Source of the DNA: Chthoniobacterales bacterium
GTDB taxonomy: Bacteria; Verrucomicrobiota; Verrucomicrobiia; Chthoniobacterales; UBA10450
Direction of reading: 5' to 3'
DNA length: 64,000 nucleotides
Assembly (NCBI GenBank): GCA_013815325.1
Contig: JACDGM010000002.1
Location: 28,556 to 92,555, forward strand
This document shows, in pieces, positions 12,134 to 18,361 of the stretch (its first letter is position 1; every line of letters begins with the position of its first letter). Both the position numbers and the translations under genes were made by a program. The notes under the pieces are model-generated. The model ran no database searches, was not told the origin of the DNA, and saw only the letters and a list, made by a program, of their open reading frames with translations.

Positions 12134-12877
12134 TTACCACGGGATCCACTGCCCGCGATAAACCGGCCGGCGCAGCAGAGGCCGGCGTCGTAATTGGATG
12201 CGTGGCGCGTGCTGGCCCGGAAGCAGACCGAGCGCCGACAGCGTTTCCATGTTCAACCGGCCATTCGGCAGAATTCCCGTCTGGCTTTGAAAAGCGCGCA
12301 CCGCCGTTGCCGTGCCCGGCCCAAAATGCCCGTCAATTCCGCTGCGAAAATAGCCGGCCCGGGCGAGAAGTGCCTGCGCGCCGACGATCACATGCCGTCG
12401 CACATCCGGCGGCGCGAGCTCATATGGCGTGCCGACAAAAACCCCACTCACTTCTGGTTGCGATCCGCGCGGCCCCGGCGCGTAATCTCCATCAGGCGCC
12501 GGCGCCGGCGCTTCGTTCGAGGGCGCTCGTTCGGGCGAAATTTCGGCCGATTGACCTACATTGTCCTCATCCGAGAAGCTCTCCGCAGGAGTCGCAACCG
12601 CCTCGGGCGGCGGCGCGGGCGCGGCTCCGCCACTGTTCCCCACGCCTAACGAACGCAATGTTTCGGCATCGATCGCGCCCGTGATTTGGAGTCCGTTGCG
12701 AATCTGATAACGCCGGATCGCCGCTGTGGTGTCGGCATTTTTTTGGCCGGAGACGTCGCCATAATAAAATCCCTGGTCCTTCAAAACCTGCTGCACCGTG
12801 GCGGTGGTCTGATCTGCGCGGGCGGCGACGGGGCTCAGGAGGAGCATGGCGAAAAATGCGAAACAGATGCGTTTCAT
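12134..12877 (-). CDS. Peptidoglycan-binding domain-containing exported protein
   Basis: 247 aa; signal peptide; two PG_binding_1-like units (KDQGFYYGDVSGQKNADTTAAIRRYQIRNGLQITG; YFRSGIDGHFGPGTATAVRAFQSQTG). Confidence 0.82.
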   Translation of the reverse strand: MKRICFAFFAMLLLSPVAARADQTTATVQQVLKDQGFYYGDVSGQKNADTTAAIRRYQIRNGLQITGAIDAETLRSLGVGNSGGAAPAPPPEAVATPAESFSDEDNVGQSAEISPERAPSNEAPAPAPDGDYAPGPRGSQPEVSGVFVGTPYELAPPDVRRHVIVGAQALLARAGYFRSGIDGHFGPGTATAVRAFQSQTGILPNGRLNMETLSALGLLPGQHAPRIQLRRRPLLRRPVYRGQWIPW

Positions 12878-12907
12878 AGACGGAATTCGACGCTCCAGCG
12901 AGAACAG

Positions 12908-13684
12908 TTATTCAGCGGGCGCGGCCCAGGCCAGCGTCGGTTCGTTAGGCGAAAGCACCTCCCGATAACGCTCAACGCCGTCACTGATCGCCGAGGCGAT
13001 CTGCTGCCGATACTCGGCCGTCGCCAGCTTCGTGAGATCGGAGGGATTGGTGATGAAGCCGCCTTCCACGAGCGCGGCCGGGTGCCGGACATTGGCGATG
13101 ACGTAAAATTGCTCGGACTTGATTCCGCGATTTACCGCCCGCGTCCGCTCCACCAGAGCGGCCTGGAGAAAGCGCGCCAGACTCTCGCTTTTTGCGAGGA
13201 GCGGTTTGGATTCCGCCGGGCGCAAAAACGGGAGCCAGGCAAAAATTCCCGGACTCATCGCGGATTGCCGCACCGCAAAATAGGTTTCCACTCCGGAAGC
13301 CGCCGCCCGTTCGCCGTCGTTAAAATGGATGCTGACAAAGAGCGAATTTCTCTCGTGATTCCCAACTGCCGCGCGCTCAGCGAGCGAGAGGTAACGATCC
13401 GAATCCCGCGTCAGCAATGTCGTGTAGCCGGCGCTGCGCAGGAGCAACTCCGCGCGCATGGCGACGTCGAGCGTCAGCTCTTTTTCCATCACCGCCCCGC
13501 AGATCGCGCCCGAGTCCTTTCCGCCGTGTCCGGGATCCAGCACCACGACGACCGGTTCGTTTTTCCCGTGGACAGCCCTCCGCGGCTGCGCCACCGGACG
13601 CACCGGCGGTGCGAGCAGGACAAAGCAGAGAAACGAGATCGACAGGAGAAATAACCCGATCCAGGAAAGGATGCACCGCATCAT
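12908..13684 (-). CDS. N-acetylmuramoyl-L-alanine amidase (Amidase_3)
   Basis: 258 aa; VVVLDPGHGGKDSGA, TLLTRDSDRYLSLAER, FVSIHFN, ALVEGGFITNPSD. Confidence 0.92.
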   Translation of the reverse strand: MMRCILSWIGLFLLSISFLCFVLLAPPVRPVAQPRRAVHGKNEPVVVVLDPGHGGKDSGAICGAVMEKELTLDVAMRAELLLRSAGYTTLLTRDSDRYLSLAERAAVGNHERNSLFVSIHFNDGERAAASGVETYFAVRQSAMSPGIFAWLPFLRPAESKPLLAKSESLARFLQAALVERTRAVNRGIKSEQFYVIANVRHPAALVEGGFITNPSDLTKLATAEYRQQIASAISDGVERYREVLSPNEPTLAWAAPAE

Positions 13685-13698
13685 TTTTTTCGGATTCG

Positions 13699-14466
13699 TT
13701 AGGCAGAGAGCGCTTGCAACTCGTCACCCGCCAGCTGGCGGTAACGAATCGACGTCGCTGCGCTTCGTTCCAGCACACACGCTTCGAGCGTCGCGCTGAC
13801 CAGCTTTTCCTGCCGGTATGCGAGCAACGCAGGGCGTCCGGGCAGTCCGCTGGGAAGGTCATCCGCCGGCGGCATGCTTCCTATGCTCCACGCATCGAGC
13901 GCGACCTTCATTGCTCCATGCAACGTCGCCTTCGGGTCGTGATCGCGTTGTAGCAGTTCTTCCATCAGCTCCGTCGCGCGGGCCGTGCCGCTGATCGCGC
14001 AAAAACCGGCTCGCTTCACGCCTCCCTCTGCCGCGATCGCGCCATCATATTCCACTCGCAAATAGAGATCCCCCTCCGGCGCCGCGCCTACTTCCGCAAA
14101 AATCATCCGCGCCAGATAAGGCGCGCCGTAAACCTGCTCAAAAGCCGTTTTCAAAAGCGGGCTGAGGGAATAAAAAGCCAGCCGTCGCAACGACACGTCC
14201 GCGGCAGAACGCGTGAACCCCTCCGCGCTTGCCAGCTCGATTGCCGCCATGCGCAGCCGCTCGATGTCGCCCGGATGCCCGATCGCTCCCAGCGCGATCC
14301 GGTCGTAAATCTCGAAAAGCTTTTGCCGCGCCTGTCCCACGGTCACGAACAAAATCCCACCGCCATAACTGAGCGCGGCGATCGGGCTCCCCGGCGCGAG
14401 TTGCGTCTCGATGTATTCGCGCCGATTGGCGATCGCCTCGACCCAACGATACGGCTCTTCAATCAT
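13699..14466 (-). CDS. prcA: 20S proteasome alpha-type subunit
   Basis: 255 aa; RREYIETQLAPGSPIAALSYGGGILFVTVGQARQKLFEIYDRIALGAIGHPGDIERLRMAAIELA; directly after the beta-type subunit. Confidence 0.88.
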   Translation of the reverse strand: MIEEPYRWVEAIANRREYIETQLAPGSPIAALSYGGGILFVTVGQARQKLFEIYDRIALGAIGHPGDIERLRMAAIELASAEGFTRSAADVSLRRLAFYSLSPLLKTAFEQVYGAPYLARMIFAEVGAAPEGDLYLRVEYDGAIAAEGGVKRAGFCAISGTARATELMEELLQRDHDPKATLHGAMKVALDAWSIGSMPPADDLPSGLPGRPALLAYRQEKLVSATLEACVLERSAATSIRYRQLAGDELQALSA

Positions 14467-15269
14467 GCGACGGTGCTTTTGAAACGCGCGGCGATCTGCT
14501 CTTCCGGCAGAGTTTTAATCCCGGCAGCGGAAATGATTTTGATGATCGGAAAAATCCGCGCCTGCCGGTCTACGCCGCCGGTCGCGGTATCCGCCTCCGC
14601 GGCGGTGTCGAGCGCGCGCAAGGCAAGCGTGACTGCGTCGTCCTCGCGCAATTTTCCCAGGAGTTTTTTCCCCCAGCGATTTTCGTAAAACAAAACGCCC
14701 CGCACCGCCGGCGACCCGGAGCCGGTTGCGGCGTATTCCGCCACCTCAAATTGCGCGCCCATTGCGTCATAAAAATAGAGGCGCGCCTGTCCATCGCCCG
14801 CGAAATCGTAGGTCGCAAAAATCGGCACGACCACGCCGACGCCCTGCATGACGAAGCCAAAATTATCGCGCAAGAGTTTAGAGAGCGCGCGCACTTTCCC
14901 ATCCACGCTCATCTCTTGCAGTTGCGTGCGTCGAAAATATTGCAGTGAATGCTCGAGCACCCGCGCCATCTCCCAAGCAGTTGCTGGCACCCCGGCGATC
15001 GCCATTATGGAATGCCTATCGATCTCGAGCACCTTGTCCGCGCGATCGTAAACCACCGTGTTTCCCGCCGTCGCACGCCGATCACCAGCGACGAGCACGC
15101 CGCCGCTAAACTTGAAGGCGAGAATCGTGGTGGAGTGCGTTGGGACGAAGACCGCACCCGCGGAGCTGACGCCCACCGCCGGTGATTGCGCAGCCTCATT
15201 CAGCAAGCCGCGCCGCCGCAAAAGCGCCGGAAAATCGGCCGCCGCCGCGCCTAACGAGTCGCCCGTCAC
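14463..15269 (-). CDS. prcB: 20S proteasome beta-type subunit
   Basis: 268 aa; propeptide then THSTTILAFKFSGGVLVAGDRRATAGN (N-terminal Thr nucleophile pattern); GTG start at 15269 overlaps the UBact stop. Confidence 0.9.
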   Translation of the reverse strand: MTGDSLGAAAADFPALLRRRGLLNEAAQSPAVGVSSAGAVFVPTHSTTILAFKFSGGVLVAGDRRATAGNTVVYDRADKVLEIDRHSIMAIAGVPATAWEMARVLEHSLQYFRRTQLQEMSVDGKVRALSKLLRDNFGFVMQGVGVVVPIFATYDFAGDGQARLYFYDAMGAQFEVAEYAATGSGSPAVRGVLFYENRWGKKLLGKLREDDAVTLALRALDTAAEADTATGGVDRQARIFPIIKIISAAGIKTLPEEQIAARFKSTVA

Positions 15270-15442
15270 TGGCCGGTGCGCTGCCGGTAGCGCTTCGATT
15301 GGTTCGGATCCACCTTGCGCATTTTCTTGAGCAAATCGCGCGTGTCCGGTTTCGAAACATCAGGCGATTTTGGGCCGCCGCCGTCCCCTGGTTGGGGTCC
15401 CCACGGCACAGGCGTCACCGGTTTTTCCGTCCGCTCAGGCAT
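15266..15442 (-). CDS. UBact-like ubiquitin-like modifier (58 aa)
   Basis: Manual translation: MPERTEKPVTPVPWGPQPGDGGGPKSPDVSKPDTRDLLKKMRKVDPNQSKRYRQRTGQ*; matches my memory of the UBact pattern (MPER..., SKPDT..LLKKMR.VDP, RYRQR[ST]GQ C-terminus). Overlaps prcB start (CAG TGA / GTG ACG). Below the ORF-track length cutoff. Confidence 0.88.
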   Translation of the reverse strand: MPERTEKPVTPVPWGPQPGDGGGPKSPDVSKPDTRDLLKKMRKVDPNQSKRYRQRTGQ

Positions 15443-15523
15443 GAAAAAATGCTACGGCGAAAGCGCCGAAACGCAAGCCGCGGCGAGCTTGCCAGCCTCG
15501 GAGAGAGGTGCCAAGCTTCGCCC

Positions 15524-15982
15524 ATGACGCGCGCCTTTTTCGCTCTCCCGCTTCTCTTCCTGGGCCTTCTCCTCGCGCCTCTTTCCCCGGCTCAAACTCC
15601 AGCCTCCGAGAACAACGAACTACTCGCCCTAACGAAAAAGATCGACGAACAGAACACAAAAATCGACGCACTCTCGCAACAGATTCTCAAACTTCAGCAG
15701 ACGCTCGAGCAAGGGAAGCCAACTCCTTCTCCGACCACGGTGGGCGTCGCCTCGGACGAAAATGCAACGGCTACTCCCGTGCCCGCCGTTGGCGGCAACA
15801 GTCACGTCGTGACTCGCGGCGAAACGCTCACCTCCATCGCGAAGCAGCACAAAGTGGGCATCGAAGAGCTGCAGAAATTCAATCACATCGAAAACGATCG
15901 GAAGCTGCAGATCGGCCAGACGCTCGCCATCCCCGGTCCCGGCAATTCCGCGCCCAGCGCCACGCCCTCGCCTAACGAGTAA
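15524..15982 (+). CDS. LysM domain-containing exported protein
   Basis: ATG at 15524 (MTRAFFALPLLFLGLLLAPLSPAQT), coiled-coil, then SHVVTRGETLTSIAKQHKVGIEELQKFNHIENDRKLQIGQTLAIP. Confidence 0.88.
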   Translation: MTRAFFALPLLFLGLLLAPLSPAQTPASENNELLALTKKIDEQNTKIDALSQQILKLQQTLEQGKPTPSPTTVGVASDENATATPVPAVGGNSHVVTRGETLTSIAKQHKVGIEELQKFNHIENDRKLQIGQTLAIPGPGNSAPSATPSPNE

Positions 15983-16512
15983 TGGAAACGGCCGGCCAGC
16001 AAAACTGGTTTTTGCGCAAGCACGTTGACGGCAGCGTTTTTGGTCCTCTACCCTTTGAGCAGATGCGGCGCTGGGCCGACGGCGCCCAGATCGCGCCGCA
16101 CGACCAAATTTCCCACGACCAGGAAACCTGGCTGAAGGCGCCGATGTTTCCGGAACTGGAGATGGACTGGCTTGTCGAAGTGACAAGGGAGCATTACTAC
16201 GGACCGACCACGTTAGGCGCAATCCAGGAATTTCTTCGCCTCGGCGAGATCGGCGAAGCGAACTTCATCATCAACTCTTGCAACGGCTCCCGCCGCCAGA
16301 TCAAAGGGCTGCCCGAGCTGGCGCGCGAGCCTAACGAACCTTTCGATGTCTCTGACCACGCGCCTCCGCCCAGCCCGATGGCGATCAACCTGCGCGACCG
16401 GATCGATGATCTAGAACAGAGCCTGTTCGAAGAGCGCCGGGCTCTCGAGGAATGCGAAGCGCGCTACCGCGACCTCGAAGCGCAATACCTCGAACTGCAA
16501 AAGCAGTCGTAG
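15982..16512 (+). CDS. GYF_2/DUF4339-like domain protein with C-terminal coiled coil
   Basis: 176 aa; WFLRKHVDGSVFGPLPFEQMRRWADGAQIAPHDQIS; TAATG overlap with the upstream LysM gene. Confidence 0.72.
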   Translation: METAGQQNWFLRKHVDGSVFGPLPFEQMRRWADGAQIAPHDQISHDQETWLKAPMFPELEMDWLVEVTREHYYGPTTLGAIQEFLRLGEIGEANFIINSCNGSRRQIKGLPELAREPNEPFDVSDHAPPPSPMAINLRDRIDDLEQSLFEERRALEECEARYRDLEAQYLELQKQS

Positions 16513-16606
16513 GATGCCTCCCGCTGGGTTGGTGCGGGTAATCGCAGCGGCGGCCCGAACTGCAGGCGTGCGGCGCAAGCCCCTCTTTGGCAGAGGGCGA
16601 AGCGCT

Positions 16607-18361
16607 CTACAGCCGCGTCGCCAGCTCTGCTTCGCCTTCCGGCGCCTCAAGAAAACTCTGCTCACAGAGCCGCGCGTATTTTCCGCCTAACGACAGCAGC
16701 TCTTCATGCGTCCCCCGCTCGATGATGCGCCCGTGATCGAGCACCAAAATTTGATCCGCGCGCACGATCGTCGAGAGCCGGTGCGCAATCACGATGCACG
16801 TGCGATGGAACATCAAGTTCTCCAGTGCCTGCTGAATCAGCCGCTCCGTCGCCGTGTCCACGCTCGCGGTCGCTTCATCGAGAATCAGAATCGGCGGGTC
16901 CTTGAGCAGTGCCCGCGCAATTGAGAGGCGTTGCTTTTCGCCCACGCTCAGCTTCACTCCACGCTCGCCCACCAGGCTCCCGAGTCCGTTAGGCAAACGA
17001 TCAATAAAGGCGCGGGCATTGGCCGCCTCGGCCGCTTCGAAAAGTTCCTCATCCGTCGCTTCCGGTTTCCCGAGAAGTAAATTTTCGCGAATCGTCCCGT
17101 TAAAGAGAAAACTCTCCTGCGCCACCACGCCGATCATTTCGCGCAAAGCGTGCACGCGGAAATCGCGGATCGGCTTCGCATCGATCATGATTTCTCCCGA
17201 GGTGAATTCATAAAAGCGAGTCAGCAGATTCACCATGGTCGACTTCCCCGCACCGGTCGCGCCGACTAGCGCAATCGTCTCGCCCGGCTCCGCGTGGAAG
17301 CTGACGTTGCTCAAGGCCGCGAGACCTCGGGCATAACTAAAACTGACGTCGTCATAATGAATTTCGCCCTCGATCTGGCCGATCGATTCGCCCTCGTGCA
17401 GCCCCGGCTCCTCCGCTTCATCGAGAATCTCAAAGACACGCTCACCGGCGGCGCGACCTGCCTGCACGAGCTGATTGAGCTGATGCAACCGCGTCACTGG
17501 TTCGTAGAGGAATCTCGTTAGGGTAATAAATGCGACGAGCGAGCCGACCTGCATTTCACCGCGCAAAACCGCGCGCCCGCCGAAGCCGATCGCGAGGACC
17601 AGACCTAACGAATTCACAAAATCCATCGACGGGCTGTAAAGCGCCCAAGCCCGCATAATGCGCAGCGTCGCCTGCCGCAAGGCGTCGCTCGCCCGGTTGA
17701 AGCGCGCGTGCTCCTGCGCTTCCCTAACGAACGATTTGATCTGACGGATACCGGCGAGATCGTCGAGCAGGAGCGCGTTCAAGGCGGAGGCGGCGCGCCG
17801 CTGCGGACGATAACGGCTCGGCCCGCTCAGCGTGTAAGCTATCGCGCCGCCCGCCAGCAACGGCACTGGGGCGAGGACGCACCAAGCGAGGCTGCCGTTA
17901 AAATAAAAGAGCGTCACGATCACGATCGCGACCTGCAGGACCGCGACGACGCCTTGCTCGATGCCATCGATCAGGACGCGCTCGACCGAGTTCACATCCT
18001 CGACCACGCGGGTGATGAGGTCGCCGGTCGCGCGATTATCAAACCAGCGCAGCGGCAGCAATTCGATGTGCTGAAAAAGGTCGCTCCGCAGATCGAAGAT
18101 AACTTTTTGTTCGAAGCTGTTGTTGAGCAAAATCCGCAATCCGTTGAGCAGGTCCTGAAGGAAAAACGAGAGGAGCGCGAGGCCCACCATGGGCAGGAGC
18201 AGCTCCGGCCGATGACCCGCGATCACGTCGTCGATGATGAACTTCGTGACCGCCGGAAAGACGATGATCATGAGCGTGCTCACGACCGCGCAGCTGAGCG
18301 TGCCGGCCGCCATCCAAGGGTAGCGTTTGAGATATGCGAAGACGCGCCAGACGGTTCTCAT
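16607..18361 (-). CDS. ABC transporter ATP-binding/permease (MsbA-like)
   Basis: 584 aa; TM domain plus GATGAGKST, LSVGEKQRLSIARALLKDPPILILDEATASVD. Confidence 0.94.
   Translation of the reverse strand: MRTVWRVFAYLKRYPWMAAGTLSCAVVSTLMIIVFPAVTKFIIDDVIAGHRPELLLPMVGLALLSFFLQDLLNGLRILLNNSFEQKVIFDLRSDLFQHIELLPLRWFDNRATGDLITRVVEDVNSVERVLIDGIEQGVVAVLQVAIVIVTLFYFNGSLAWCVLAPVPLLAGGAIAYTLSGPSRYRPQRRAASALNALLLDDLAGIRQIKSFVREAQEHARFNRASDALRQATLRIMRAWALYSPSMDFVNSLGLVLAIGFGGRAVLRGEMQVGSLVAFITLTRFLYEPVTRLHQLNQLVQAGRAAGERVFEILDEAEEPGLHEGESIGQIEGEIHYDDVSFSYARGLAALSNVSFHAEPGETIALVGATGAGKSTMVNLLTRFYEFTSGEIMIDAKPIRDFRVHALREMIGVVAQESFLFNGTIRENLLLGKPEATDEELFEAAEAANARAFIDRLPNGLGSLVGERGVKLSVGEKQRLSIARALLKDPPILILDEATASVDTATERLIQQALENLMFHRTCIVIAHRLSTIVRADQILVLDHGRIIERGTHEELLSLGGKYARLCEQSFLEAPEGEAELATRL

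Follow-up and report, generated by a model that had tools for sequence, protein, structure and literature searches.

The window analysed here, a stretch of 64,000 nucleotides, belongs to a Verrucomicrobiota soil bacterium whose genome assembly comprises 4.15 Mb in 209 contigs and is 94% complete. Three genes follow one another on its minus strand (Table 1), namely UBact, which codes for a small ubiquitin-like modifier, and prcB and prcA for the beta subunit and a divergent alpha subunit of the proteasome. The first-pass annotation had proposed a UBact-type peptide here on the basis of a manual translation, and our own translation is identical to it letter for letter. At 58 aa the peptide lies slightly below the customary 60-aa limit for open reading frames. 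Both UBact profiles recognise it well above their cut-offs (PF20513 of Pfam with 79.7 bits against 27.8, E 1.3e-22; NF033388 of NCBIfam with 83.9 bits against 35, E 6.6e-24), and nothing else in the genome exceeds the cut-off for UBact. The Pup profiles, which were also to be consulted according to that annotation, gave zero matches to the peptide, UBact models alone being returned from Pfam and NCBIfam at E up to 1. Since no Pup model matches, the tag is filed as UBact, and Pup proper was rejected as its identity. Among solved structures none resembles UBact in sequence, and disorder is to be expected of the tag. Upstream of UBact no promoter-like site was found, and terminator-like matches at the locus were no commoner than in shuffles.

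Table 1. Coordinates of the genes in the window and of related features on other sequences. Recurrence is counted in the best 80 of at least 326 loci that encode UBact relatives.
Feature	Sequence	Coordinates	Strand	Supporting match	Recurrence
UBact, 58-aa ubiquitin-like modifier, C-terminus ...RYRQRTGQ	window	15266..15442	-	PF20513, NF033388 and conservation	
prcB, proteasome beta subunit, GTG start inside the UBact stop	window	14463..15269	-	PF00227, E 5.9e-30	
prcA, divergent proteasome alpha subunit, ATG start inside the prcB stop	window	13699..14466	-	TIGR03691, E 1.3e-26; M. tuberculosis PrcA, E 1.6e-16	
N-acetylmuramoyl-L-alanine amidase (Amidase_3)	window	12908..13684	-	PF01520, E 4.1e-49	59/80
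Secreted peptidoglycan-binding protein (PG_binding_1)	window	12134..12877	-	PF01471, E 1.5e-26	64/80
LysM protein, divergent, upstream of UBact	window	15524..15982	+	PF01476, E 5.9e-14	73/80
ARC-type ATPase	L007 (from contig C27)	1300-3054		TIGR03689, 469.6 bits	
Six-gene cluster, family f15	L200	1080-7712			
Six-gene cluster, family f15	L201	1157-7718			
UBact gene of genome G040	L103	3609-3785	+		
UBact gene of genome G040	L104	77-253	+		

An overlap between UBact and the GTG start of prcB, with prcB abutting prcA, had also been described. Both junctions proved to be overlaps of 4 nt, GTGA between the UBact stop and the prcB start (15269-15266) and ATGA between the prcB stop and the prcA start (14466-14463), and the three genes thus form one tightly coupled operon. 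In PrcB the mature Thr1 corresponds to T47, which stands behind a leader of 46 residues, and the alignment with the mature actinobacterial PrcB chains of the PDB begins at query residue 47; D63 and K79 occupy the positions of Asp17 and Lys33. It may be noted that PrcB reaches 174.5 bits with TIGR03690, under the equivalog cut-off of 191.9, and PrcA 93.5 bits with TIGR03691, under the trusted cut-off of 139.05 (both NCBIfam). As none of the relatives checked attains the beta cut-off, these two models appear to be tuned to other lineages. The PafA, Dop and ARC proteins of this genome, like PrcA and PrcB, all score under the cut-offs of equivalog models trained on actinobacteria. Besides prcB and prcA, no further proteasome-family genes were found in the genome.

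The genes for the ligase, Dop and the ATPase, rightly reported as missing from the window, were sought in the rest of the genome and all were found there, on three other contigs: one Dop-type gene on C45, one PafA-type gene on C96 and one ARC-type ATPase on C27. The Dop-type and PafA-type proteins match Pup_ligase (PF03136) over their full length with 553 and 418 bits, respectively. The gene on C45 (L001) is of Dop type, with 488 bits for TIGR03688 against 391 for PafA and with the Dop loop present. The gene on C96 (L002), a second copy alongside the Dop-type gene, scores 320 bits for PafA and 315 for Dop, and because these two values are almost equal its assignment to the PafA type rests mainly on the absence of the Dop loop. 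By alignment, the counterpart of Dop D94, which we take to be the catalytic aspartate, is D109 in L001 and D96 in L002. The ATPase on C27 combines two OB domains (PF17758 and PF16450) with an AAA domain (PF00004), and of the PDB entries Mpa, the proteasome-associated ATPase, matches it best (E 2.4e-102).

The annotation had called UBact with a proteasome rare, a statement that does not hold within this lineage, where 43 of 58 related genomes have UBact; of the same 58, 43 have PrcB, 44 a Pup_ligase match and 39 a strong match to ARC. Across a species-level collection of genomes, relatives of UBact are encoded at no fewer than 326 places, the best 80 of which all lie in records named Verrucomicrobia(ota), Chthoniobacterales, Chthoniobacteraceae, Spartobacteria or Candidatus Udaeobacter. 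Conservation of the 58-aa frame upstream of prcB was confirmed in that UBact stands directly ahead of prcB on the same strand at 78 of these best 80 loci; at one of the two others prcB was matched only farther along (L142), and at the second the contig edge follows 114 bases past UBact (L154). UBact and Pup_ligase also occur together. In 95 distinct genomes (the 58 related genomes plus the family of one exception) both were present in 61 cases and neither in 30, leaving UBact only in 1 and the ligase only in 3. Judged by these comparisons, the host locus reads as a typical Pup-like proteasome system of the Chthoniobacterales, common in the order. One genome that is 96% complete, G057, carries prcB, prcA and a UBact of 73 aa with a Gly-rich insert (L102); the profile search of this genome found neither a Pup_ligase match nor a strong one to ARC. 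Of its congeners, G058 has UBact with two Pup_ligase genes, and G059 and G060 have neither. The gene pattern of G057 may mean either that genes are being lost or that the assembly has a gap.

The relatives of UBact keep M1 and the terminus RYRQRTG[QE]. Among 77 of them, 61 end in Gln and 16 in Glu, always after an invariant Gly, and this mix suggests that the need for deamidation differs within the lineage. Compared with 68 relatives of equal length, the UBact gene shows 1520 synonymous and 683 non-synonymous codon differences, and 1922 of the 2968 differences fall on third codon positions, a pattern indicating that purifying selection acts on UBact. A related bin, G040, contains two different UBact genes (Table 1), one of which ends in GE and lies with prcB-prcA. 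Its orphan paralogue ends in GQ and is 53% identical to the UBact of the window, and no proteasome genes were found on the 7.6 kb read around it; this second gene may reflect contamination of the bin.

In the host the genes of the pathway lie in four separate places, so the separation of modifier and protease from the conjugation genes, which had been pointed out from the window, is real. It is not a special trait of this bacterium, being the norm in the family and apparently a derived condition. In many Chthoniobacterales the genes form three loci, with ARC directly before dop in one, UBact-prcB-prcA in another and pafA in the last, and only in a few genomes (G073, G076 and G039) is pafA still close to UBact. 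In the genus to which the window belongs, the members examined have ARC and dop on different contigs too. A family of the same class with small complete genomes (f15) carries the genes as a single stretch of about 6.6 kb in the order ARC-dop-UBact-prcB-prcA-pafA, and since this family keeps all six genes in one cluster, the scattering is best read from gene order as derived, with the pair of tag and core staying together. Around the operon, genes for PG_binding_1, Amidase_3, LysM, GYF_2 and an ABC transporter (window 12134-18361) recur in most relatives. This conservation of neighbours is probably merely stable synteny, and the Amidase_3 neighbour probably lies outside the tagging system.

We also compared the docking interface between ATPase and core. 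In M. tuberculosis the C-terminal GQYL of Mpa docks on the core, where its Tyr contacts Arg26 or Glu119 of the alpha subunit, its Gly contacts Asp144 and Ser146, and the terminal carboxylate can bridge to Lys52 (PMC9599533). The ATPase of the host ends in SSVI, without GQYL. Of the 27 readable ATPase ends from the order, this one included, 23 are VI and 4 are II, with GQYL in none, and the four ATPases from f15 end in VV. On the alpha side, 74 PrcA sequences were aligned with the M. tuberculosis protein, to which their identity is low, flanking identities anchoring each site. The Arg26 position is changed in all of them (Pro, Ser, Thr, Ala or other) and the Glu119 position is Leu in 74 of 74, while the Lys52 and Asp144 positions are invariant; the PrcA of the window has Pro, Lys, Leu and Asp at the Arg26, Lys52, Glu119 and Asp144 positions. 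Given the low identity to the M. tuberculosis protein and the shared ancestry of these sequences, the shift in the pocket counts as one matched change and not as 74. Activators that lack the penultimate Tyr are found elsewhere, as in the actinobacterial Cpa and in the eukaryotic 11S activator, which is bound through its C-terminal residue (PMC6017811). It is conceivable, and we put it forward tentatively as somewhat short of an even chance, that in the verrucomicrobial UBact proteasome a Tyr-less tail (-[VI]-I or -VV) docks the ATPase and has co-evolved with the pocket, the docking being carboxylate-based as in eukaryotic 11S activators and the gate being opened by some other contact.

Taken as a whole, UBact-prcB-prcA very probably represents a translationally coupled operon that supplies a Pup-like tagging and degradation pathway with its tag and its 20S core. 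Sequence itself shows that each part is present and conserved, together with its place in the gene order and its key residues; for the reaction steps we infer the course from the actinobacterial Pup pathway, homology to which is the basis of the scheme (PMC3511204). As UBact ends in Gly-Gln, deamidation should come first, the Dop-type enzyme on C45 turning the C-terminal Gln into Glu. Next, the PafA-type ligase on C96 would join the Glu side chain of UBact to substrate lysines with the use of ATP. The tag would be bound by the ARC/Mpa-type ATPase on C27 at its N-terminal coiled coil, and this ATPase may in turn dock on PrcA through the Tyr-less tail by way of the terminal carboxylate and the conserved Lys. 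The ATPase would unfold the tagged substrate into the PrcAB barrel, Thr1 of PrcB would cut it and Dop would recycle the UBact tag.

A different role for the tag, in which UBact conjugated by PafA serves mainly as a mark for regulation or storage, with PrcAB degrading proteins regardless of the tag, appears improbable to us. Such a role would agree with an ATPase devoid of the GQYL docking tail and has a parallel in some actinobacteria, which keep pupylation without a proteasome (PMC3511204). But almost all relatives have UBact adjoining or overlapping prcB, the genes for the proteasome and for conjugation come and go as one set, and the altered tail is paired with altered pocket residues, as expected for an interface that is kept. 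Still less credence can be given to the idea that the locus is a decaying remnant with a degenerate conjugation arm; every gene of the set is an uninterrupted open frame in this genome, the catalytic residues are those expected and UBact is under apparent purifying selection, against which stand the four places of the genes and the case of G057, where UBact and prcB were found without a match to Pup_ligase or a strong one to ARC. That the 58-aa frame is a chance one with a UBact-like end, as its shortness and the want of a promoter-like site nearby might suggest, is so improbable in view of HMM scores far over the cut-offs, conservation at more than 80 loci and the synonymous bias of the coding pattern that we rejected it.

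We return to the Pup-like degradation pathway and its known counterparts. UBact was reportedly named in 2017, in Gram-negative bacteria (Lehmann et al. 2017, BBRC 483:946, doi 10.1016/j.bbrc.2017.01.037, as cited in PMC12751074). The host shares with the UBact system of those bacteria the modifier family (PF20513/NF033388) and a single genome that codes for homologues of PafA, Dop, ARC and the 20S subunits, but has the genes in four places instead of the one cluster presumed for that system. With the Pup-proteasome system of Actinobacteria (Mycobacterium, Corynebacterium, Rhodococcus) it has in common the homologous ligase, deamidase/depupylase, ATPase and 20S core as well as a small tag whose C-terminal Gln or Glu needs or skips deamidation. 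It departs from that system in the end of the tag, Thr-Gly-[Gln/Glu] here as opposed to Gly-Gly-[Gln/Glu] in Pup, and in the tail of the ATPase, -[VI]-I as opposed to GQYL, with the residues for the Tyr contact lost from PrcA. For the Gram-negative Armatimonadetes, Nitrospirae and Verrucomicrobia, the last being the phylum of the host, bacterial alpha and beta subunits that cluster separately had been described before (Fuchs et al. 2017, PMC5666114), and Pup homologues were described in Verrucomicrobia, with Pup-type tags in Methylacidiphilum (Iyer et al. 2008, PMC2588565). As verrucomicrobial proteasome subunits and Pup-type tags were known before, the host system is a regular example of a kind already reported. 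The parts of these two papers drawn on here describe neither a change of tail and pocket nor a stepwise scattering of the genes, and the tail-pocket change may be the sole part of the system that is new.

For this abundant and mostly uncultured soil lineage, the results confirm by sequence a complete Pup-like pathway that is common among its members. The gene order of the relatives records how a cluster once in one piece came apart into several loci, the tag staying with the protease core. If confirmed, the match between tail and pocket would let nature itself test to what extent a working ATPase-proteasome needs the Tyr-based docking rule.
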